Below are positions 27,969-39,148 of a stretch of DNA of 39,559 nucleotides, piece by piece. The DNA comes from Deltaproteobacteria bacterium (GTDB lineage Bacteria; UBA10199; DSSB01; JACPFA01), in NCBI GenBank assembly GCA_016183235.1, contig JACPFA010000003.1, forward strand, positions 1 through 39,559, read 5' to 3'. Positions within the stretch are counted from its first letter, which is position 1. Every line of letters starts with the position of its first letter. The position numbers were made by a program, and so were the translations under genes. The notes beneath the pieces are model-generated. The model was given only the letters and a program-made list of their open reading frames with translations, was not told the DNA's origin and did no database searches.

Positions 27969-28050
27969 TGTCATTGCGAGCCCAGCAGGACGAAGCAATC
28001 TCTTCTGTTTAAGCGATGGGATTGCCACGCCCGTTGGGCTCGCAATGACA
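27969..28050. repeat. Family B full element
   Basis: TGTCATTGCGAGCCCAGCAG to GTTGGGCTCGCAATGACA with inner halves GAAGCAATCTC and GGGATTGCCACG. It is nearly the same unit, in opposite orientation, as 30015-30096. Confidence 0.85.
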
Positions 28051-28064
28051 GATTTATGATCGTC

Positions 28065-28616
28065 CTAATATCCCCACGGGTTACCCAAATGAATCGTATC
28101 CTGCCCATGTTCTTGATAAGCACCAGGATAAGGTGGTGGTACATTCTTGCGATTACCTCCCGTGTCACCCTCCAGGCCACCCCGGCGCAAACTTTGAATC
28201 TCTTTGCGAATGTCATCAACGACCAACAAATATTTAGCTTGTTGGGTAGGGGTTAAAAACTGCCCCAATTCTTGCATCTGAGCATCGTCAATGCCTTTGA
28301 GTTCGGAACGACTTTGGCGAATGGCATTTAAGATGCGCTCGGTTTCTTGCTTATTGCCCGCCTTGGTAGCCATTTGCAATTGTCGGGTAAGGTCAGCGGT
28401 TTGACGGCGCAATTCTAATTTTCTTAATTGATATTTTTTCAATACAAACCGCAAGCGATCGGCTTTGTGAGGTTCTAAATCCAACACATCGGCAATCCGG
28501 GTGGCAATGAGCGAATTGACCCTCTCTAGCTTGTCTACCGGTTCAGCCATCACCCAGCCTGGAATCATCACCACACTCAAAACAACCATCAACCAAAACC
28601 CAATCCACTTTTTCAC
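28065..28616 (-). CDS. Spy/CpxP-like periplasmic protein (LTxxQ-type)
   Basis: 183 residues starting at GTG 28616, one base after the upstream stop, with AGGGGGA as the ribosome site. A signal peptide (1-24, VMA-EP) precedes a long helical region with hydrophobic heptads (LDLEPHKADRLRFVLKKYQLRKLELRRQTADLTRQLQ). It ends in LTPTQQAKYLLV (about 132-143), the LTxxQ motif of Spy/CpxP proteins. The C-terminal 40 residues are Gly/Pro-rich. In enteric bacteria such proteins are envelope-stress chaperones or sensors. Here it is cotranscribed with an ECF sigma factor and its putative anti-sigma, suggesting a sensor similar to RsrA/CnrX-type partners. Confidence 0.8.
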   Translation of the reverse strand: MKKWIGFWLMVVLSVVMIPGWVMAEPVDKLERVNSLIATRIADVLDLEPHKADRLRFVLKKYQLRKLELRRQTADLTRQLQMATKAGNKQETERILNAIRQSRSELKGIDDAQMQELGQFLTPTQQAKYLLVVDDIRKEIQSLRRGGLEGDTGGNRKNVPPPYPGAYQEHGQDTIHLGNPWGY

Positions 28617-28617
28617 T

Positions 28618-29163
28618 TTAGGTCCCCCTTCCGACTTTAGTTTCTAGAAATTTAATATAAACATCTAATTCGTCATCTTGTAAATCGGGGATATCCAGCT
28701 CTTCGTCTACCGCTGATCCAGAAAGGTCGATCTTTCCTGCAAGATTATAGGCTAGTTTGTCGAGTTGCTGATCGTTCAATTCTTCTAGGGGCAGATCTTG
28801 ATCTTCTTCAAACCAGCCCGTTTCTTGCAAAGTTTGTAAGGTTGCCAACCATTCGCGTTGATTGCCACCGGGCCGATTAAAAAAATCAAACTGTAAAGTT
28901 AAGGCCAAAATTAAAACTGCAGCCATGGCCAAGAGTGGTTTGGCAAAATATTGCCAGCTGCGAGTAATTTTAGTAATGCGTTGCGGCTCTTCGGCAATTT
29001 GTTTCATGATGGCGCGCCGTTGGCGTGCAAAGAACAATTCACCGGGATCTTGCAACTCAGAATCTAAGGCCTTTAATTCTTCAATCAAGGCCCCATATTC
29101 GTTTAAATCACGGATCGACTCCATGATTTGCTGTTTTTGTTGGTTCCAAAATTCCGGTTTCAT
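28618..29163 (-). CDS. Putative membrane anti-sigma factor
   Basis: 181 residues from the ATG at 29163, which overlaps the sigma stop (ATGA); an ATG three codons earlier is also possible. The N-terminal cytoplasmic part is helical and charged (residues 1-72), then comes one transmembrane helix (about 74-92), then an acidic periplasmic tail with many Asp/Glu/Leu. Size, topology and position directly after an ECF sigma gene are those of anti-sigma factors. No zinc-type HxxxCxxC motif is present, so it is not of the ZAS class. The function is inferred from context. Confidence 0.75.
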   Translation of the reverse strand: MKPEFWNQQKQQIMESIRDLNEYGALIEELKALDSELQDPGELFFARQRRAIMKQIAEEPQRITKITRSWQYFAKPLLAMAAVLILALTLQFDFFNRPGGNQREWLATLQTLQETGWFEEDQDLPLEELNDQQLDKLAYNLAGKIDLSGSAVDEELDIPDLQDDELDVYIKFLETKVGRGT

Positions 29164-29681
29164 TGTATCCACTCTTTTAGACTTTTCATGGCATGGTGAA
29201 AGTTAACTTTGACAGCCGTTTCTGTACTTTCTAAAACTTCCGCAATCTTTTTAAACGGCATCTCCTCATAAATTCTCAACATCACCACCTCTTTTTGTCG
29301 CTCCGGCAAATTTTCTAAAGCCTTTTTTAACTGGCTTTTGCGATCCCCGGCTTCTTCTGCCTCTTGTCGTCGTTCTTCGGAACCGTCACTCAAAGCCTCC
29401 GGCACCTCCACCATGATGCGTCGCGCACGCACCACGTTTTTGCATAAATTCACCGCAATCGTCGTTAGCCATGTTTTGAAAGAGGATTCAAAGCGAAAAC
29501 TACCCAAAGCTTGGTAAGCGCGAAGAAAGGCCTTTTGGGTAATATCGTCGGCCTCTTCCTGATTTCTCAAAAACCGTAAAGCGGTGAAAAAAACCGAACG
29601 CTGGTATTTTTCAACCAGGGGTTCAAAGGCTTCTTGGCTACCTGCCAACACGGCTTCAATGTATTTTCGATCCTCTTCCAA
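29160..29681 (-). CDS. ECF-type RNA polymerase sigma factor
   Basis: 173 residues. The sigma-2 region spans about 20-88 (YQRSVFFTALRFLRNQEEADDITQKAFLRAYQAL) and includes the DDITQ core-binding segment. A flexible acidic linker follows, then the sigma-4 helix-turn-helix (about 118-170, LPERQKEVVMLRIYEEMPFKKIAEVLE). The start is TTG at 29681: the only in-frame options between the TAA stop and the domain are weak codons, with AGGGG about 15 bases upstream. It is coupled to the anti-sigma gene by ATGA. A rare start codon may keep sigma levels low. An ECF-like promoter lies on the opposite strand at 29744. Confidence 0.93.
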   Translation of the reverse strand: MEEDRKYIEAVLAGSQEAFEPLVEKYQRSVFFTALRFLRNQEEADDITQKAFLRAYQALGSFRFESSFKTWLTTIAVNLCKNVVRARRIMVEVPEALSDGSEERRQEAEEAGDRKSQLKKALENLPERQKEVVMLRIYEEMPFKKIAEVLESTETAVKVNFHHAMKSLKEWIQ

Positions 29682-29743
29682 AATAAAAACACACAGAACC
29701 CCTATTGATTAGGACTCAGTGCGCTCCAAAAAAGTTAAAATAA

Positions 29744-29781
29744 TGAACCACTTATTTAACCTTAAACGTCTAAGTGGGTTC
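29744..29781 (+). promoter_or_regulatory. ECF-like promoter overlapping an inverted repeat
   Basis: TGAACC (29744-29749), 17 bases, then CGTC (29767-29770), close to the Bacillus sigma-M/W type TGAAAC-N16/17-CGTC. The same bases form the stem GAACCACTTA / TAAGTGGGTTC (29745-29754 and 29771-29781), a possible operator or RNA hairpin. It faces a 29-codon ORF starting at 29816. Confidence 0.4.
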
Positions 29782-29815
29782 TAAAAAGCAAATAAACATT
29801 AAAAGGACTCAAAAA

Positions 29816-29905
29816 ATGATGCCAGAATCGCTAACTATTCGAAAACTCTTAGGAATCATCTGTGGCCATCTCTTTTTGTTGGGGTTTACTTTACTACTTG
29901 CATAA
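29816..29905 (+). CDS. 29-residue putative membrane peptide
   Basis: MMPESLTIRKLLGIICGHLF plus LLGFTLLLA, read from ATG 29816 to TAA 29905. After a short charged N-terminus, residues 10-29 form one hydrophobic helix with a single Cys and His. AAAGGAC lies just upstream as a fair ribosome site. An ECF-like promoter/hairpin lies upstream and a hairpin with a T-run downstream. No family recognised. It could be a small regulator or leader peptide linked to the divergent ECF sigma factor. Short ORFs arise by chance, hence moderate confidence. Confidence 0.5.
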   Translation: MMPESLTIRKLLGIICGHLFLLGFTLLLA

Positions 29906-29921
29906 CCCAATGGTACTTTAA

Positions 29922-29965
29922 CTCAGGCGAATGCCTGGGGGCAAGGATAGGGTTTTCCTTTTTTT
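29922..29965 (+). terminator. Intrinsic terminator candidate after the small ORF
   Basis: A CTCAGGC/GCCTGGG hairpin with loop GAAT (29922-29939) is followed by AAGGA...TCCTT and seven T residues (29959-29965). The distal stem is short, so confidence is limited. Confidence 0.4.
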
Positions 29966-30014
29966 AAAACCGCGGCTCCCTTATAATCGTAACTTATGTC
30001 CAACATAGTAATGG

Positions 30015-30096
30015 TGTCATTGCGAGCCCAACGGGCGTGGCAATCTCACCGGTTAAACAGAGGAGATTGCTTCACCCTAAAGGGTTCGCAATGACA
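30015..30096. repeat. Family B full element
   Basis: TGTCATTGCGAGCCCAACGG to AAGGGTTCGCAATGACA. Inner arms GTGGCAATCTC and GAGATTGCTTCACCC flank a short centre. It ends six bases before the ATG of the DUF58 gene, occupying its ribosome-site region. Confidence 0.85.
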
Positions 30097-30101
30097 GAAT
30101 C

Positions 30102-31370
30102 ATGCAGTCATTAGGCCGCGCAATAGGTTATGCAAAAGGTCTGTTACAAATCCTGTGGGGCGTTATACCTTTGAGTGGGTTGGGGCTCTTTTTGACGCTC
30201 ATCACTTACGCACTATGGCGTTTTTATGTTGCCGGCCGCCAAGATTTTTTATTGCTCGTTTTGTGCATAGGCCTTGGCATTCTTTTGGCGGTGTCACTTT
30301 TGCAACTTTTGATTGGCATCCTCCTTTTCTTTTTCTCCTACAAAAAACAATCTCTCAAACCCATTCAAGGCGAGACTCAAACTACTTTTTGGACTAACTT
30401 TAAACTCAAACGTTTGTTTTTTACACCCAGCCTAGAATATTCCATTCGCTGGCTTTCCCCTGAACAAATCGAAGCCAACCTCGAGCAACGTTGGAACCAA
30501 CTGCATGAATATGTATTGGCCAAAAGACGTGTCGAAGCAACCCAAGTCACTCGCCAAATTTATATTCGAGATTTATTGGGCTTAGTAAAATTTGCGTGGC
30601 GTTTTACTTTAAACCAAACTGTATTGATACGACCCAACGTTCAACGCATTGGGATCAACGAGGCATTGAAATTATTTTCGATGGGTGATGAAATTTCTCA
30701 CCCCGAGGGTTCACCCGTGGGAGATTATATTGAGATGAGGCGCTACGGGCCCGGGGACCCTGTCAACCGCATCTTGTGGCGAGTCTATGGGCGCAATCGC
30801 AAATTGATGGTGCGCACCCCTGAAAAGGCCATCTCCCATCGTAAAAAAACTTTTGCTTATCTTATTAGCGGCCCCCGCGATGAACCCTCTGCCCAAACCG
30901 CTTGGTATGCCTTAGAAAAAGGTTTGTTGGGTGAAGAATTTGTTTTTTCTACCGATGGGCACAACTTGCCCACCACTGAAAAAACTCAAGCCAAAAAAAT
31001 GATCATCACTTCAAGTCATGCCCCAACACCTGCCAACAACCTAGAATCCTTCTTTTCAAAAGATCCCGACACTAACAAAGCCAACTGCATTATCTTTGCA
31101 CCTCCAGAACCAGGGCCGTGGCTTGCAACGGCTTTGCATTTGGCCAAAAACCGCAGCCAACCCCTGACGGTGTTGATCTCGATCGATGGCTTTCGCGATC
31201 AAAAATTAAAAAAACACTGGAAGAGTTATTTTTTAGAAACCGACGAACACTTTCAACGTCAAACTCAAAGGTCTAAAGATATTTTTCAAGCCTTGCGCGG
31301 GCACCGTATTAATGTTGATGTCGTTGATTATAAAACTGGAACCTTAGTACCCCATCAACAATTGGAATAA
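30102..31370 (+). CDS. DUF58-domain protein
   Basis: 422 residues with two N-terminal transmembrane helices (about 15-40 and 45-73). The DUF58 core (about 205-240) contains EMRRYGPGDPVNRILWRVYGRNRKLMVR, equivalent to the family's 'REYRPGDDPRRIDW' signature. No complete von Willebrand MIDAS (DxSxS) was recognised in the C-terminal part, although DUF58 proteins are normally vWA-related. MoxR-DUF58-transglutaminase gene sets are widespread and linked to envelope or metal-cofactor maturation, but mechanistic roles are unsettled. The start at 30102 lacks a Shine-Dalgarno because a family B repeat precedes it. Next gene after two bases. Confidence 0.85.
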   Translation: MQSLGRAIGYAKGLLQILWGVIPLSGLGLFLTLITYALWRFYVAGRQDFLLLVLCIGLGILLAVSLLQLLIGILLFFFSYKKQSLKPIQGETQTTFWTNFKLKRLFFTPSLEYSIRWLSPEQIEANLEQRWNQLHEYVLAKRRVEATQVTRQIYIRDLLGLVKFAWRFTLNQTVLIRPNVQRIGINEALKLFSMGDEISHPEGSPVGDYIEMRRYGPGDPVNRILWRVYGRNRKLMVRTPEKAISHRKKTFAYLISGPRDEPSAQTAWYALEKGLLGEEFVFSTDGHNLPTTEKTQAKKMIITSSHAPTPANNLESFFSKDPDTNKANCIIFAPPEPGPWLATALHLAKNRSQPLTVLISIDGFRDQKLKKHWKSYFLETDEHFQRQTQRSKDIFQALRGHRINVDVVDYKTGTLVPHQQLE

Positions 31371-31372
31371 CC

Positions 31373-33631
31373 ATGAATACCCCTCAATACCGAGAACCTT
31401 GGTTTTTATTTTTACTCAAGGTGATGCTTTACACGGTCGTCACGGGGGCAACCTTAAGAGACTTTACCAGCCCGCTCGGAACCGTGGCTGGCGTATTGGG
31501 TGCCATCAGTGCTGCAACACAAGTTCCTTGGATTATTCGCACCCACCTAAAACCGATTGCCGTATTTGCCATTGGATTAGGCCTATTGTTTTTAGGCATA
31601 GGCCTAGAAAGTCTGCTGTTAAATTCAGAAAGTTTAGCTCATGCCATTGGCGTAGAAAATACTTTCAAAGTGAGTGAATTCGTCAATATTGGGCTCACGA
31701 CGTTTGGGTTTTTATTTTGTCTACGGGCGCTGGCCCTTTATTGGCCAGTATTTAATGTTTTAGAGGCAAGCTTGTTAGCCGGCTTCTTCGTCTGGAAGCT
31801 CTCGACCCATCGAGATTTTTCTTTGCATCGCCCACGTTACTTGTCTGACTTTGCGTGGGATTTGGGCATTAACCCCGTCATTATTTTATTGGTGATTGGT
31901 GCGCTCTTATTCACCGGCGCTGCCATGATGATGATTAAAACCCGCCGCTTCTTGCGAGCGACGGCACAAGTTCTGATGATTCTCATCATCGGGTTAAGCG
32001 TATTTTTGATTTTCAAAGACAAAAACATCAACATGATTCCACGCGACGACACCTTTGGCCTAACCGCCAATGACCCACGCAGCTTGCACCGCGGCCAGGG
32101 CCAAGACTCTTCTGGAAAAAACGGAGGTAATCAGGGTGGACAAGACCCCAATCAAGATGGAAACCAAGGCGGGCAATCTCAAGGCGGTTCGGGGCGCAAC
32201 AACCCCAACGAAATGCCTTTTAAAAATAGTTATGCCAGTCAAAATCAAAATTTGCCCATTGCCCTTGTGCAGTTTGAAGATGATTACACGTCACCGCTGG
32301 GGGTTTATTACTTTCGCCAAACGGCCTTTAGTCAATTCAATGGTCATCGTTTAGTGCAATCTTCCGAAGACAAAGATATTTTTTTGAGCCTGCCCACAAA
32401 AGGTTCCAGCAAAGTTGCAACCACTTACTATAAAAATCCTGAAGAATATTTTTACCTACCTACCAAAATCTTTTTATTAGTCGATCCCACCAAGCCCTTT
32501 GGTTTGGCCAATGCGGTGGAGATGGGGCGCTTGGATAATCCCAACCCAACTTTTTTTACCGGGGCGTATCAGGTTTATTCTTGGGCACCCAACACCGATT
32601 TAGAAAACCTACTTAAAAATGATTTGCGAATCCCCCAATGGGACGAAGCTAAAATGAAGCTGTATTTGGAAGTCCCCAAAGACAATCGTTATAAAGACCT
32701 CGCTGATGAAATTATTAAAACGCTTAAACCCGAATATCGCAACAAACCCTTTGCGAGGATGTTAGCCATTGTCTACTACTTGGGAAAAAATGGTTATTAC
32801 AGTTTACAAAGCGACCACGCCGACGCTCAAGACCCCACCGCTTCTTTTTTATTTGGCAATCGCACCGGTTATTGCGTGCACTTTGCTCATGCTGCTGTTT
32901 TTCTGGCCCGTACTTTAGGGATCCCCGCGCGGGTAGGTGCCGGCTATGCCGCGCCTAATAAGCGCCGCGAAAAAGGCGAAAATTTAGCGCTCATGGAAAG
33001 AGACGCCCATGCCTGGCCCGAAATTTATTTAGAACCCTTTGGCTGGATTGTCATGGACATCCCTCTACAAAACTTTTTGGACCCTCCCACATCTGAACCC
33101 AGTCAATCTTTACAAACCACTTTAGGGCAAATCGCTAAAACCGGCAAAAATAAACCCCCGGAAGATGAAGTCACCAAAGAAGAAAAAAAAGAATTAGAAA
33201 AAAAATTAGCCTGGCTTAAAAGTTTGGCCCAATACCTTTGGAAAGGTCTACTAGCTTTGGCAGTCACTGGGCTTAGTTTTTGCTATGCCTTTAAGATGTA
33301 TCGCTTATGGGGATGGAATTGGGGCGAACCTCGCGACAAAATACGCAAAGCCTATCGTAGCACCTTAGACCGTTTACTTTATTTAGGAGTACGTCGCCCG
33401 TTTGGAGAATCCCGAGAAGAATTTGCCATGCGGCTAGCCGCCCAAATCCCAGCGTTAGAAAAACTCACCTGGAGTTTTTTACAATTAAAATTAGGCAAAC
33501 CGCCCCATTTGCCCGAAGCATCTTTGCATCAACTCATGAAAGAAATTAAAACCGAAATAAAAGCTAAAAAAGTTTGGTGGAAGATGATCCTTACGATCAT
33601 CAATCCATTGTCATGGATTCGAATTAAATAA
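31373..33631 (+). CDS. Transglutaminase-like membrane protein (TgpA type)
   Basis: 752 residues. About six N-terminal transmembrane helices (15-215) are followed by a Gly/Gln/Asn-rich linker (about 238-280) and an external domain with a transglutaminase-like core. The catalytic triad is Cys501 (RTGYCVHFAHA), His546 (RDAHAWPEIYL) and Asp562 (WIVMD). A further helix lies near 620-640, followed by a cytoplasmic DUF4129-like tail (KAYRSTLDRLLYLGVRRPFGESREEFAMRL). This is the TgpA/DUF3488 layout; such proteins cut or crosslink peptides outside the membrane. All catalytic residues are present. Cotranscribed with DUF58 and MoxR genes, as in many genomes. Confidence 0.88.
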   Translation: MNTPQYREPWFLFLLKVMLYTVVTGATLRDFTSPLGTVAGVLGAISAATQVPWIIRTHLKPIAVFAIGLGLLFLGIGLESLLLNSESLAHAIGVENTFKVSEFVNIGLTTFGFLFCLRALALYWPVFNVLEASLLAGFFVWKLSTHRDFSLHRPRYLSDFAWDLGINPVIILLVIGALLFTGAAMMMIKTRRFLRATAQVLMILIIGLSVFLIFKDKNINMIPRDDTFGLTANDPRSLHRGQGQDSSGKNGGNQGGQDPNQDGNQGGQSQGGSGRNNPNEMPFKNSYASQNQNLPIALVQFEDDYTSPLGVYYFRQTAFSQFNGHRLVQSSEDKDIFLSLPTKGSSKVATTYYKNPEEYFYLPTKIFLLVDPTKPFGLANAVEMGRLDNPNPTFFTGAYQVYSWAPNTDLENLLKNDLRIPQWDEAKMKLYLEVPKDNRYKDLADEIIKTLKPEYRNKPFARMLAIVYYLGKNGYYSLQSDHADAQDPTASFLFGNRTGYCVHFAHAAVFLARTLGIPARVGAGYAAPNKRREKGENLALMERDAHAWPEIYLEPFGWIVMDIPLQNFLDPPTSEPSQSLQTTLGQIAKTGKNKPPEDEVTKEEKKELEKKLAWLKSLAQYLWKGLLALAVTGLSFCYAFKMYRLWGWNWGEPRDKIRKAYRSTLDRLLYLGVRRPFGESREEFAMRLAAQIPALEKLTWSFLQLKLGKPPHLPEASLHQLMKEIKTEIKAKKVWWKMILTIINPLSWIRIK

Positions 33632-33643
33632 AGGAGTCAAGTC

Positions 33644-34660
33644 ATGAATCAGGTAGCCGCTTCAAAATGGAACCCGTCTGCTAAAATTAATTCTTTAGAT
33701 ACGGTGCGAGAAACCGCCCGCATTTTACACGACCGCATGAAGGCTGCGGTGCAGGGACGCGACGACGTCATTGATATCATCCTCTATGCCCTTTTAGGCG
33801 ACGGCCACGTGCTATTAGAAGATTACCCAGGTTCCGGTAAAACGACACTCGCCAAGGCCTTAGGAGAATCCATCTTTGATGATGTCAAAGATGACATTCC
33901 CCATTTTCGCCGAGTTCAATTCACCCCTGACTTGCTTCCTTCCGACATCACCGGAGTTATGGTTTTTGATTCTACCAAAAATGAATTTTATTTTCGGGCG
34001 GGGCCTTTATTTTCGTATGTTGTGTTGGCCGATGAAATCAACCGCACCTCACCTAAAGTTCAATCCGCCCTTTTAGAAGCCATGGCTGAAAAACAGGTAA
34101 CCGTTGATAACACCACCCACAAACTTGATAACCTCTTTTTCGTCATCGCCACCCAAAACCCCCTTGATCTAGTGGGGACCTATCCCCTGCCCGTGGCACA
34201 GCTCGACCGTTTCCTTTTCAAAGTACGCATGCAGCACATCACCCGCGACGCTGAATTTGAAGTGTTGACCAAATGGAACACCGATCGCTTGGCGCCCGAT
34301 CTCCCCAAAGTAAGCCGCACAGAGATTCTCAATATGCGGGCATTTATTCGAGAAAACGTGCGGGTTTCGGATGCGGTAATGGCTTGTCTGGTCGATATCT
34401 TTAGGGCCTTGCGCGAAGAACCGAGCATCTTACAAGGGGCCAGCACTCGCGCCATGGTATTGGCGATCCCCGCCCTACAAGCCAGGGCTGTGCTGGATGG
34501 CCGCGACTTCATCTCAGCCTCTGATATTGAGGCCCTCCTCATCCCTTTACTCATCCATCGTTTGGAATTCAAACATGGCGTTACCGAAAAAGAAAAAATC
34601 ATTCATCAAGCTGCAAAACCAGTGTTGGAACATTTAGCACGGAGTACTTTAAAGAAATGA
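33644..34660 (+). CDS. MoxR-family AAA+ ATPase
   Basis: 338-residue cytoplasmic ATPase. Walker A is PGSGKTTL at 62-69, Walker B VVLADEINR with Asp130/Glu131, sensor ATQNP near 166-171, and the C-terminal lid spans 235-335. MoxR ATPases act as chaperones that assemble or activate vWA/DUF58 partners, here presumably the DUF58 product two genes upstream. The start has the ribosome site AAGGAG at 33632-33637. The stop overlaps the next gene (ATGA), so translation is coupled. Confidence 0.95.
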   Translation: MNQVAASKWNPSAKINSLDTVRETARILHDRMKAAVQGRDDVIDIILYALLGDGHVLLEDYPGSGKTTLAKALGESIFDDVKDDIPHFRRVQFTPDLLPSDITGVMVFDSTKNEFYFRAGPLFSYVVLADEINRTSPKVQSALLEAMAEKQVTVDNTTHKLDNLFFVIATQNPLDLVGTYPLPVAQLDRFLFKVRMQHITRDAEFEVLTKWNTDRLAPDLPKVSRTEILNMRAFIRENVRVSDAVMACLVDIFRALREEPSILQGASTRAMVLAIPALQARAVLDGRDFISASDIEALLIPLLIHRLEFKHGVTEKEKIIHQAAKPVLEHLARSTLKK

Positions 34661-36675: not shown

Positions 36676-38651
36676 GGTTTACGACACCTCGTCATCCCGG
36701 CCCTGAGCCGGGATCCATCTTAATCTTATTTTCCATTTTTATCATCTTAACCAGTCAACTTTGTCATGCCGAAGGAGGCGACCTCAAAGTCTACTCTGAA
36801 GAACTGGCCAGCTACGAAGCTTATCTAAAAGGCAAAGACGTTCAGGCCCGCAAACTGATTCAAGAAGTCATGGCCAAAGATGCAAAAAGCCCGGTGGCTT
36901 ATTTAATGTTGGGGCTACTCACTCGCACGGATGAAGGCAACACCACCCGCGCCTTACTTTATTATAATAAGGCCATTGAATACACCGAAGCGCAATGCGG
37001 GGTAACTCCGCTTACCACCAACTGTGTGAAATGGCATTCGATTGCCTATCAAGAAAAAATCGAGGCCCTCACCAACCTCGACCGCCCGCAAGAGGCTCTT
37101 GATATGATTGCCCACTATGATAGTTTGTATGATCCTAAACTCGAAGTTCAAAAAATCTGGCCACTTTTAAAATTACATCGCCATGCAGAGGCCACGGCGG
37201 TGGCTGAACAAGTCATCGCAACTGATACACCTGAAAACAAATCGATCGCCCTCAATGCCTTATGCGCCATTGCCGCCGACCTCAACGACCGAATAAAAAG
37301 CGACCAAGTTTGTAGTGAAGCCACTGCGCAATCAGAATCGATGGTCATTTATTCCAACACCCACATCGCCAAATTTGCTATTTTCGATCATGAAGGTGCA
37401 GAACAAATCGCTAGAAAAGGGGCCCTTTACCCCACCGATTTTTATGGTTCCGTTTGGGAACATCTTGTCTCTCAATATACCCTCGAACAACGCTATGCTG
37501 AGGCCCTTTCAGCCGCTACTCAAGCTGCCAACGTACACCGTGGGTTTAGCGGCCTAGAAGAAGAACTAAGCCGCGGCGATTTTTTAGAAGGAGTATCACA
37601 ATTATTATTGGCGCTGGGCCGTATGGAAGAGGCCTATCGTTTTGCCAAAGAAAGCTACGAATTACCTGATCGCACGGGCAATACCAGTGTGACCCCTCAA
37701 TTTGATGAATTCACCCACGAAGGGTTTTACTATCTCATGCTAAAACTTTATGAAGAACAATTAGCAGCTCAAATGCCACAACTTAGTTATCGAGAAAAAT
37801 TCAAAACATTTTTTCATCTTTTAGAAATTCGCTTCACTCGCTTTACGGTCGCAAGAAAATTAAAAAAATTATTACAGGTCAAAGATCACCTTGCCTTAAT
37901 AGTTACGCCCTATCCTTCTTACTCCGGCATCAGTGGCACCATACCCTTTTGGCTCGTTGGTGGCCTATTAGAGGTGACAGGCTCAGGGCCTTTTCTTAAA
38001 GCTATTGAACAAAGTCTCTCCCATGAAACTGGGTTGCTGGACAAAAGCGAACCCTATTATCTGACCCTTAAGGCCCAAGTTAATTTTTATGAACATAATT
38101 ATTCGGAAACCATCCGCTTAAGCGAAGAGGCTCTAGCCAAATTTCCACCCCAAGAAGCCATGCTAAGGGATTTACTCAAAACGCTATTGGCCGTTGCCAA
38201 TGGCAAACAAGGTGAGCTGGCTTCGCAAAAAAATCTTTATATTGAAATTTTGCGATCCAATCCCCTTTACTTACGTTTTTATCAAATCCCCATTCCTGTT
38301 CACTTCACCACTGAGCCAGGCACACACACCAAAAAAGCTTTGAATTTATTAAAGCAAAGCCCTCGCTTGCAATCTAACCGTCAAGGCATTGAATTACACA
38401 TTCGTTCGAATGAGCATGCACTTTCGCTATGCTTGCAAGACGATTACCACTCGGCCATTCACTGCACCGAAAGTGAAATTAAAGTTGGCAGCAAAGATCA
38501 ATCCGTTGAAAAAACTGTGAGCCAATTCATTCAAGAGGCCTTTTCCCCCAAAGTCGACTTGTCTCAACTCGACGTCAACACCTTAAACGGTGCCCCCACC
38601 AAAAGCTCTGGCACCGAAGCTATTCAAGATTTGTTAAAATCCACTCATTAA
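36672..38651 (+). CDS. Exported helical-repeat (TPR-like) protein, paralogue 2
   Basis: 659 residues. The start overlaps the paralogue-1 stop (ATGA). The signal peptide n-region MRFTTPRHPGPEPGS includes a family A repeat (36691-36718), followed by the core ILILFSIFIILTSQLCHA and the mature start EGGDLKVYSEELASYEAYL. Its body aligns to paralogue 1 over the whole length. Shared blocks include PVAYLMLGLLTRTDEGNTTRALLYY, TTNCVKWHSIAYQEKIEAL, VHRGFSGLEEELSR, and a C-terminal VDLSQLDVNTLNGAPTKSSG. Conserved Cys/His near FSLCLQDDYHSAIHC correspond. The duplicated pair may form heteromers. Last gene of the operon, with a giant palindrome touching its stop codon. Confidence 0.8.
   Translation: MRFTTPRHPGPEPGSILILFSIFIILTSQLCHAEGGDLKVYSEELASYEAYLKGKDVQARKLIQEVMAKDAKSPVAYLMLGLLTRTDEGNTTRALLYYNKAIEYTEAQCGVTPLTTNCVKWHSIAYQEKIEALTNLDRPQEALDMIAHYDSLYDPKLEVQKIWPLLKLHRHAEATAVAEQVIATDTPENKSIALNALCAIAADLNDRIKSDQVCSEATAQSESMVIYSNTHIAKFAIFDHEGAEQIARKGALYPTDFYGSVWEHLVSQYTLEQRYAEALSAATQAANVHRGFSGLEEELSRGDFLEGVSQLLLALGRMEEAYRFAKESYELPDRTGNTSVTPQFDEFTHEGFYYLMLKLYEEQLAAQMPQLSYREKFKTFFHLLEIRFTRFTVARKLKKLLQVKDHLALIVTPYPSYSGISGTIPFWLVGGLLEVTGSGPFLKAIEQSLSHETGLLDKSEPYYLTLKAQVNFYEHNYSETIRLSEEALAKFPPQEAMLRDLLKTLLAVANGKQGELASQKNLYIEILRSNPLYLRFYQIPIPVHFTTEPGTHTKKALNLLKQSPRLQSNRQGIELHIRSNEHALSLCLQDDYHSAIHCTESEIKVGSKDQSVEKTVSQFIQEAFSPKVDLSQLDVNTLNGAPTKSSGTEAIQDLLKSTH
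36691..36718. repeat. Family A repeat translated in the paralogue-2 signal peptide
   Basis: GTCATCCCGGCCCTGAGCCG followed by GGATCCAT, in frame within the gene at 36672, encoding RHPGPEPGS. Confidence 0.85.
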
Positions 38652-38864
38652 ATCAGAAATTAAGTAAAAGAATTGGGGCAGGCTTGTTTCGTCGGCCGGC
38701 GCTCCAGCGGCGACCTTCATGGGGTCAGCGGGCACGGAAGCCTTCCGCGTTCCCGCCAGGCGGGCCGCGGTTTTCCATGCCCGCTGACCCACATGAAGGG
38801 CCCGCCGCTTCCGCGATGGCCTCCTCAACAAGCCCACCCCAATTCTTTTACTTAATTTCTGATT
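38651..38864. repeat. 214-base near-perfect inverted repeat
   Basis: The arms 38651-38678 (AATCAGAAATTAAGTAAAAG AATTGGGG) and 38837-38864 are 28-base exact complements. The inner part, GC-rich, pairs imperfectly around the palindrome CCCGCCAGGCGGG (38752-38764). The left arm begins on the last base of the upstream stop codon. It could be a structured RNA, a MITE or a strong transcription barrier. No ORF of interest lies within. Confidence 0.8.
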
Positions 38865-38911
38865 ACCCCGTTTATGTTGACACCAAAATCTTGTAGGAGT
38901 ATTTGAGCAAC

Positions 38912-39148
38912 ATGTCTTTACCCAATCGCCTCGAAACCCAATGGCCCGAATTAAAACTTAAGCTTCAAAACAAATGGGATCGCCTAAGCGACACCGATTT
39001 AGAAAAGATCAACGGCCATTTTGACCTCTTAGTCAAAACCTTGCGTAACTTGTATGGTGGCAGGATAGAAATCATTCAAGAAGCCGCAATTCGCGATAGT
39101 TTAAACGAAATGCTCACAGAACTCGAAACCAATAAAAACATTGTTTGA
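38912..39148 (+). CDS. CsbD-like small stress protein
   Basis: 78 residues from the ATG at 38912; a TTG three codons earlier is also possible, and AGGAG lies at 38895. The sequence QWPELKLKLQNKWDRLSDTDLEKINGHFDLLVKTLRNLYGG matches the CsbD pattern (WxxxKxxxKxKWGxLTDDDLxxIxGxxDxLVxxLQxxYG), although the family's Gly-Lys residues are replaced. CsbD proteins are general-stress induced, cytoplasmic and of unclear mechanism. Preceded by the large palindrome. Confidence 0.75.
   Translation: MSLPNRLETQWPELKLKLQNKWDRLSDTDLEKINGHFDLLVKTLRNLYGGRIEIIQEAAIRDSLNEMLTELETNKNIV

Follow-up and report, generated by a model that had tools for sequence, protein, structure and literature searches.

A candidate 29-residue membrane peptide behind an ECF-type promoter motif, opposite an ECF sigma factor gene of an uncultured deltaproteobacterial lineage

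Does the 420-bp divergent region that separates an ECF sigma factor gene from the next plus-strand operon contain a short gene of its own? A preliminary description had proposed that a 29-codon open reading frame (smORF) in this region encodes a membrane micropeptide with an ECF-like promoter, opposite the sigma factor gene. This proposal was followed up in the window (the whole 39,559-nucleotide stretch of DNA analysed; Table 1), in the genome to which it belongs and in a phylum set of 46 genomes, with seven same-order genomes as the nearest relatives compared. Background statistics were computed on 436 kb, made up of the window and a genome sample. A translated membrane micropeptide under an ECF promoter is the single best reading of the locus, with a probability of roughly 0.4.

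Table 1. Features of the sigma factor locus and its surroundings (window positions)
Feature	Position	Strand	Basis
Spy/CpxP-like small exported helical protein	28065..28616	-	Position and layout as in same-order and Omnitrophota loci (by eye)
Single-TM protein in anti-sigma position	28618..29172	-	Homologues directly 3' of sigma gene in relatives
ECF sigma factor, TTG start	29160..29681	-	TIGR02937 1.9e-32; Pfam Sigma70_r2, r4_2
Candidate ECF promoter of short transcript: -35 TGAACC 29744-29749, N18, -10 GTCTAA 29768-29773	29744..29773	+	
Imperfect inverted repeat GAACCACTTA / TAAGTGGGTTC; arms hold the GAACC core of both candidate -35 boxes	29745..29781	.	
Candidate opposing ECF promoter of sigma operon: AGAACC 29782-29777, N16, GTTAAA 29760-29755	29755..29782	-	Pattern scan; predicted
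Shine-Dalgarno-like AAGGA, 8 nt 5' of ATG	29803..29807	+	Sequence
29-codon smORF MMPESLTIRKLLGIICGHLFLLGFTLLLA, one hydrophobic helix	29816..29905	+	
Weak terminator-like region: CTCAGGC-GAAT-GCCTGGG stem, then AAGGA...TCCTT and T7 run	29922..29965	+	Fold
REP-like palindromic element between smORF and next operon	30016..30095	.	Fold z -8.6; TCATTGCGAGC motif
Downstream operon: DUF58-like, transglutaminase-core (TgpA-like), MoxR AAA ATPase	30102..34660	+	Pfam
CsbD-like gene	38912..39148	+	51% identity, E 3.6e-20, to same-order gene opposite sigma

The sigma factor module and its neighbors

The gene opposite the smORF is indeed an ECF sigma factor gene: its product contains the sigma2 and sigma4 domains only, and its orthologues in the seven same-order genomes show 55-65% identity. 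The protein in the anti-sigma position matched no Pfam family above the cut-off and no anti-sigma family; in Omnitrophota loci its place is taken by a zf-HC2-like anti-sigma, as judged by eye. No Pfam family was matched by the Spy/CpxP-like protein. The gene order sigma / putative anti-sigma / Spy-like is conserved in same-order and Omnitrophota loci, and all seven same-order genomes keep the sigma gene, together with the anti-sigma and Spy-like genes where these are readable.

In five of the seven same-order genomes, the gene immediately facing the sigma gene is CsbD-like. In the genome studied here, the orthologue of that gene is intact (NCBIfam PRK10428, 2.7e-5, below the cut-off) and is separated from the sigma gene by a stretch of about 9 kb that holds the smORF, a REP-like element and the DUF58-like, transglutaminase, MoxR and TPR genes. 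Thus, the divergent side of the module turns over, and the locus illustrates such turnover opposite a conserved ECF module, with a CsbD-like gene in most relatives versus the smORF and the 9-kb operon here. Since the CsbD-like orthologue is intact, the idea that the smORF is a decayed CsbD gene was rejected. In the downstream operon, Pfam matches were obtained for Transglut_core (2.9e-22) and AAA_3 (3.1e-56), and DUF58 (0.0017) was below the cut-off; a search of 19 relatives for the DUF58-like gene was negative.

Repeats are a further feature of this window. REP-like elements with TCATTGCGAGC inverted ends occur at 27970-28049, at 30016-30095 and in many other places, and the TCATTGCGAGC motif was counted 23 times against 2.9 expected; the two copies named flank the segment made up of the sigma, anti-sigma and Spy-like genes and the smORF. 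A near-perfect palindrome of about 200 bp (38650-38868; AATCAGAAATTAAGTAAAAGAATTGGGG ... CCCCAATTCTTTTACTTAATTTCTGATT; -148 kcal/mol) separates the TPR-protein operon from the CsbD-like gene and may be either a giant terminator or a mobile palindromic element. The string TGAAACTCGATGATGAATTTATACGTC (positions 694-720) is present in five identical genome copies (C3, C9, C27, C32 and C48) and seems to be part of a repeated gene; its copy in the window falls within a minus-strand lipoprotein-like frame.

The ECF-type promoter motif and its palindrome

The TGAACC-N17-CGTC motif of the preliminary description was recovered at 29744-29770, and is better written as TGAACC-N18-GTCTAA, or GAAC-N20-GTCTAA when counted from GAAC. 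It ends 42 nt 5' of the smORF start codon. Recognition of AAC in the -35 element and of CGT in the -10 element is typical of ECF sigma factors, and autoregulation is common among them (PMC8103513). Of 26 distant homologues of the sigma factor, mostly from Omnitrophota, 14 have their own gene preceded by GGAACT-N16/17-GTC(TAA), compared with a rate of 0.25% in shuffles. The window site has the same -10 and the same GAAC core, and its spacing is close to that of the homologous sigmas, the spacer being one base longer than the commonest homologue spacing. In many Omnitrophota genomes (loci L047-L069), a clear GGAACTTTT-N-GTCTAA promoter stands 5' of the sigma / anti-sigma / Spy-like operon, and this operon with its promoter is an ECF regulon ready for study.

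In 3,000 dinucleotide shuffles of the 420-bp region, a post hoc test, the exact TGAACC-N17-CGTC string was never obtained and the looser GAAC-N17..20-CGTC appeared in 0.9%. The exact string occurs only twice in the genome, and the other copy, on C24, coincides with the beginning of a transporter-like ORF. GAAC-N17..19-GTCTAA was not enriched in the same genome (11 sites versus 17 in the reversed control); the signal is therefore the position of the motif, not its frequency. The window site is the only intergenic, gene-facing one among the eight sites in this genome whose loci were inspected. A 16-nt repeat of AAGTGGGTTCTAAAAA at C34 was rejected as a second promoter, as it lies inside a tryptophanyl-tRNA-synthetase-like ORF. 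The seven same-order genomes contain no comparable motif in the sigma direction and lack the GAACC...CGTCTAA site opposite the sigma gene; G005 alone among them has a short-spaced GGAACT...GTCC in the divergent direction. Taken with the promoters of the distant homologues, the position of the site supports the ECF-promoter reading of the preliminary description, and we lean towards regarding the window site as an ECF-type promoter.

The 10-bp stem that had been placed ahead of the ORF exists as an imperfect inverted repeat (arms 29745-29754 and 29771-29781; 10 pairs, one bulged G), but it lies on the promoter itself, not 3' of it, and is marginal as an RNA hairpin (-8.2 kcal/mol; z -1.9; equalled by 10 of 200 shuffles). 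Since its arms cover the promoter, the stem would not be transcribed whole. A simpler reading of the palindrome would be that its two arms supply each strand with a GAACC -35 core. Between the minus-strand copy and the sigma TTG are 73 nt, a distance like that of the homologues' promoters. Because its -10 is poor, matching GTCTAA at four of six positions, this minus-strand promoter remains putative; the plus-strand copy is the better match. With its weaker opposing copy, the palindrome may hold two overlapping divergent ECF promoters. A more elaborate proposal is in our judgment decidedly improbable as a whole: it has two divergent ECF promoters overlap completely within the 38-bp palindrome, sets the sigma operon and the gene of a lineage-specific 29-residue membrane peptide in competition for one and the same sigma, and lets the peptide feed back on the membrane anti-sigma.

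The 29-codon frame and its transcript

The encoded peptide has two basic residues followed by about 19 hydrophobic ones, and the single hydrophobic helix attributed to it agrees with a Kyte-Doolittle maximum of 2.33 over 19 residues. Its ATG is preceded by AAAAGGACTCAAAAA. The ribosome site described for it is also plausible, as AAGGA-class sites precede 15% of ATG-started long ORFs and 1% of internal ATGs, and are thus about 15-fold commoner at starts. Starting from an in-frame GTG at 29774, the product would have 43 residues, but a better ribosome site precedes the ATG at 29816. ATG-started smORFs of 20-60 residues with a Shine-Dalgarno (SD) site and a TM-like helix were found in 0.43% of 3,000 dinucleotide shuffles of the 420-bp region, again post hoc. 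In a 57.6-kb intergenic sample, smORFs of this type were about as frequent as the shuffle rate predicts; thus the frame alone would be unremarkable in a genome scan, and what stands out is its place beside the sigma gene and behind the motif. The codon statistics of the smORF (log-likelihood ratio, -1.4 bits) are lower than those of 93% of gene windows and higher than those of 78% of intergenic smORFs.

Homologues of the peptide were found neither in its own genome nor in 45 other genomes of the class, plasmids, Pfam, PHROGs or the PDB, and the peptide is absent opposite the sigma gene in all seven same-order genomes. For the conservation in relatives that the preliminary description had put forward as a check, the nearest genomes compared were those of the same order. 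Weak tblastn matches in the class (E 0.07-0.39) were rejected, the best of them (G006, C57) having an internal stop and running antisense to a mutY-like gene, and the plasmid, PDB and PHROG matches included nothing credible. Because no relative of the peptide was found in any genome searched, the smORF is a reasonable small-protein candidate and not a proven gene; by these comparisons, it would be either lineage-specific or not a gene. Of the proposed membrane micropeptide gene, the ECF-promoter reading is thus supported, but no homologues were found, the frame is absent at the locus in the seven same-order genomes, and codon statistics do not separate a gene from chance.

The lack of conservation, together with the chance-level frequency of such smORFs in the genome and the lack of motif enrichment, would speak for there being no gene here, the ORF and the promoter-like string having both arisen by chance or the plus-strand motif being the palindromic shadow of a real minus-strand sigma promoter. 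However, the promoter motif, SD site and TM frame follow one another correctly ordered and spaced in a stretch of 160 bp, the distant homologues of the adjoining ECF sigma use GGAACT-N16/17-GTCTAA, and the plus-strand copy matches better than the minus-strand one. We consider the absence of a gene unlikely.

We favor instead a lineage-specific short sigma-dependent transcript that is probably translated. Its main rival is a non-coding stress RNA: a sigma-dependent product some 180 nt long, made from a real promoter, in which the 29-codon frame occurs only incidentally. MicA, RybB and MicL are sigma-E sRNAs of E. coli. Sigma-E-dependent sRNAs form an established class (PMC12249550), the codon statistics are undecided, no homologues of the peptide were found, and an end at the T7 run (29959-29965) would keep the transcript compact. 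Against this, a near-optimal SD site and a clean TM helix frame are combined in only 0.4% of shuffles, the transcript folds no better than shuffled sequences (z -0.08), and an Rfam search with it matched no family. A non-coding product is accordingly possible but, on balance, doubtful.

The good downstream terminator of the preliminary description was not confirmed: the terminator scan listed none, the CUCAGGC-GAAU-GCCUGGG stem has no T run after it, the T7 run is preceded only by an AAGGA/TCCTT stem, and the fold shows no strong terminator. This weakness would suit a transcript that runs on as a 5' leader into the DUF58-like / transglutaminase / MoxR operon, with the promoter belonging to that operon and the smORF serving as a leader peptide or being incidental. 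The operon is on the same strand, with its genes beginning 328 nt from the -10, and it sits between the sigma gene and the ancestral CsbD-like neighbor, so promoter and operon may have arrived together. Nevertheless, a stable 80-bp REP-like palindrome and the T run intervene, and we hold the leader explanation to be improbable.

The size and single hydrophobic helix of the peptide would also fit a type I toxin-like membrane peptide of the TisB/TimP kind, checked by an antisense RNA; type I toxins of E. coli comprise 18-51 aa, and TimP has 38 aa (PMC7667032). But there is no second copy in the genome and no family match, and a scan for sigma-70-like promoters found none near the smORF on either strand (29682-30100) from which an antisense RNA could be expressed. 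A type I toxin is thus very improbable.

Proposed mechanism and comparison with known systems

For the favored reading of a translated micropeptide, we infer that the RpoE-like ECF sigma, encoded in an operon with the putative single-TM anti-sigma and the Spy-like protein, would fire the short divergent transcript from TGAACC-N18-GTCTAA, and that the weaker opposing copy may serve the sigma operon itself. As both copies lie in one palindrome, the promoters would overlap almost entirely, each -35 box being near the start site of the other. The transcript would most likely be translated from the AAGGA-preceded ATG, and the peptide would be inserted into the inner membrane, its R/K-bearing end on the inner side. 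Sigma released by envelope stress would raise both its own operon and the peptide, which could then be a small membrane-stress effector or exert feedback on the membrane-bound anti-sigma; any such regulatory role is conjecture. The sequence elements, the family of the sigma factor, the conservation of its operon and the motif class in homologues are shown, whereas use of the site by this sigma, transcription, translation, membrane insertion and any function are predictions. If expressed, the peptide would add an unannotated small membrane protein to the envelope-stress regulon of an uncultured lineage, and autoregulation of the sigma could be coupled to the peptide through the promoter layout. 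As a class of small membrane proteins linked to stress is already known, the candidate would be only moderately surprising and would belong to known kinds, either a small stress-linked membrane protein or a dual-function RNA.

The RpoE/ECF operons of Omnitrophota and same-order deltaproteobacterial metagenome-assembled genomes share with the window the order sigma / membrane anti-sigma (putative in the window) / Spy-like, and the Omnitrophota loci share the GAAC...GTCTAA promoter class. Unlike the window, both groups lack a smORF with an SD site and a TM-like helix opposite the sigma gene, apart from weak TTG- or GTG-started frames in L047 and L060; the same-order genomes are also without the motif, and five of the seven have the CsbD-like gene in that place. 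The sigma-E sRNAs MicA and RybB are, as is proposed for the window transcript, short ECF-driven transcripts of an envelope-stress response, whereas the candidate transcript carries an SD-preceded ORF and matches no Rfam family. TisB and TimP differ in having no sequence relation to the smORF, for which no antisense RNA was found, but resemble it in their length of about 30 residues, one hydrophobic helix and a stress-linked promoter, which is a candidate in the window. Finally, the dual-function RNA VcdRP of Vibrio cholerae (PMC8672173) has another regulator and another sequence, and dual function is only a possibility for the window RNA; in V. cholerae, a short RNA encodes the 29-residue protein VcdP, and the window RNA would likewise encode a peptide of 29 residues.
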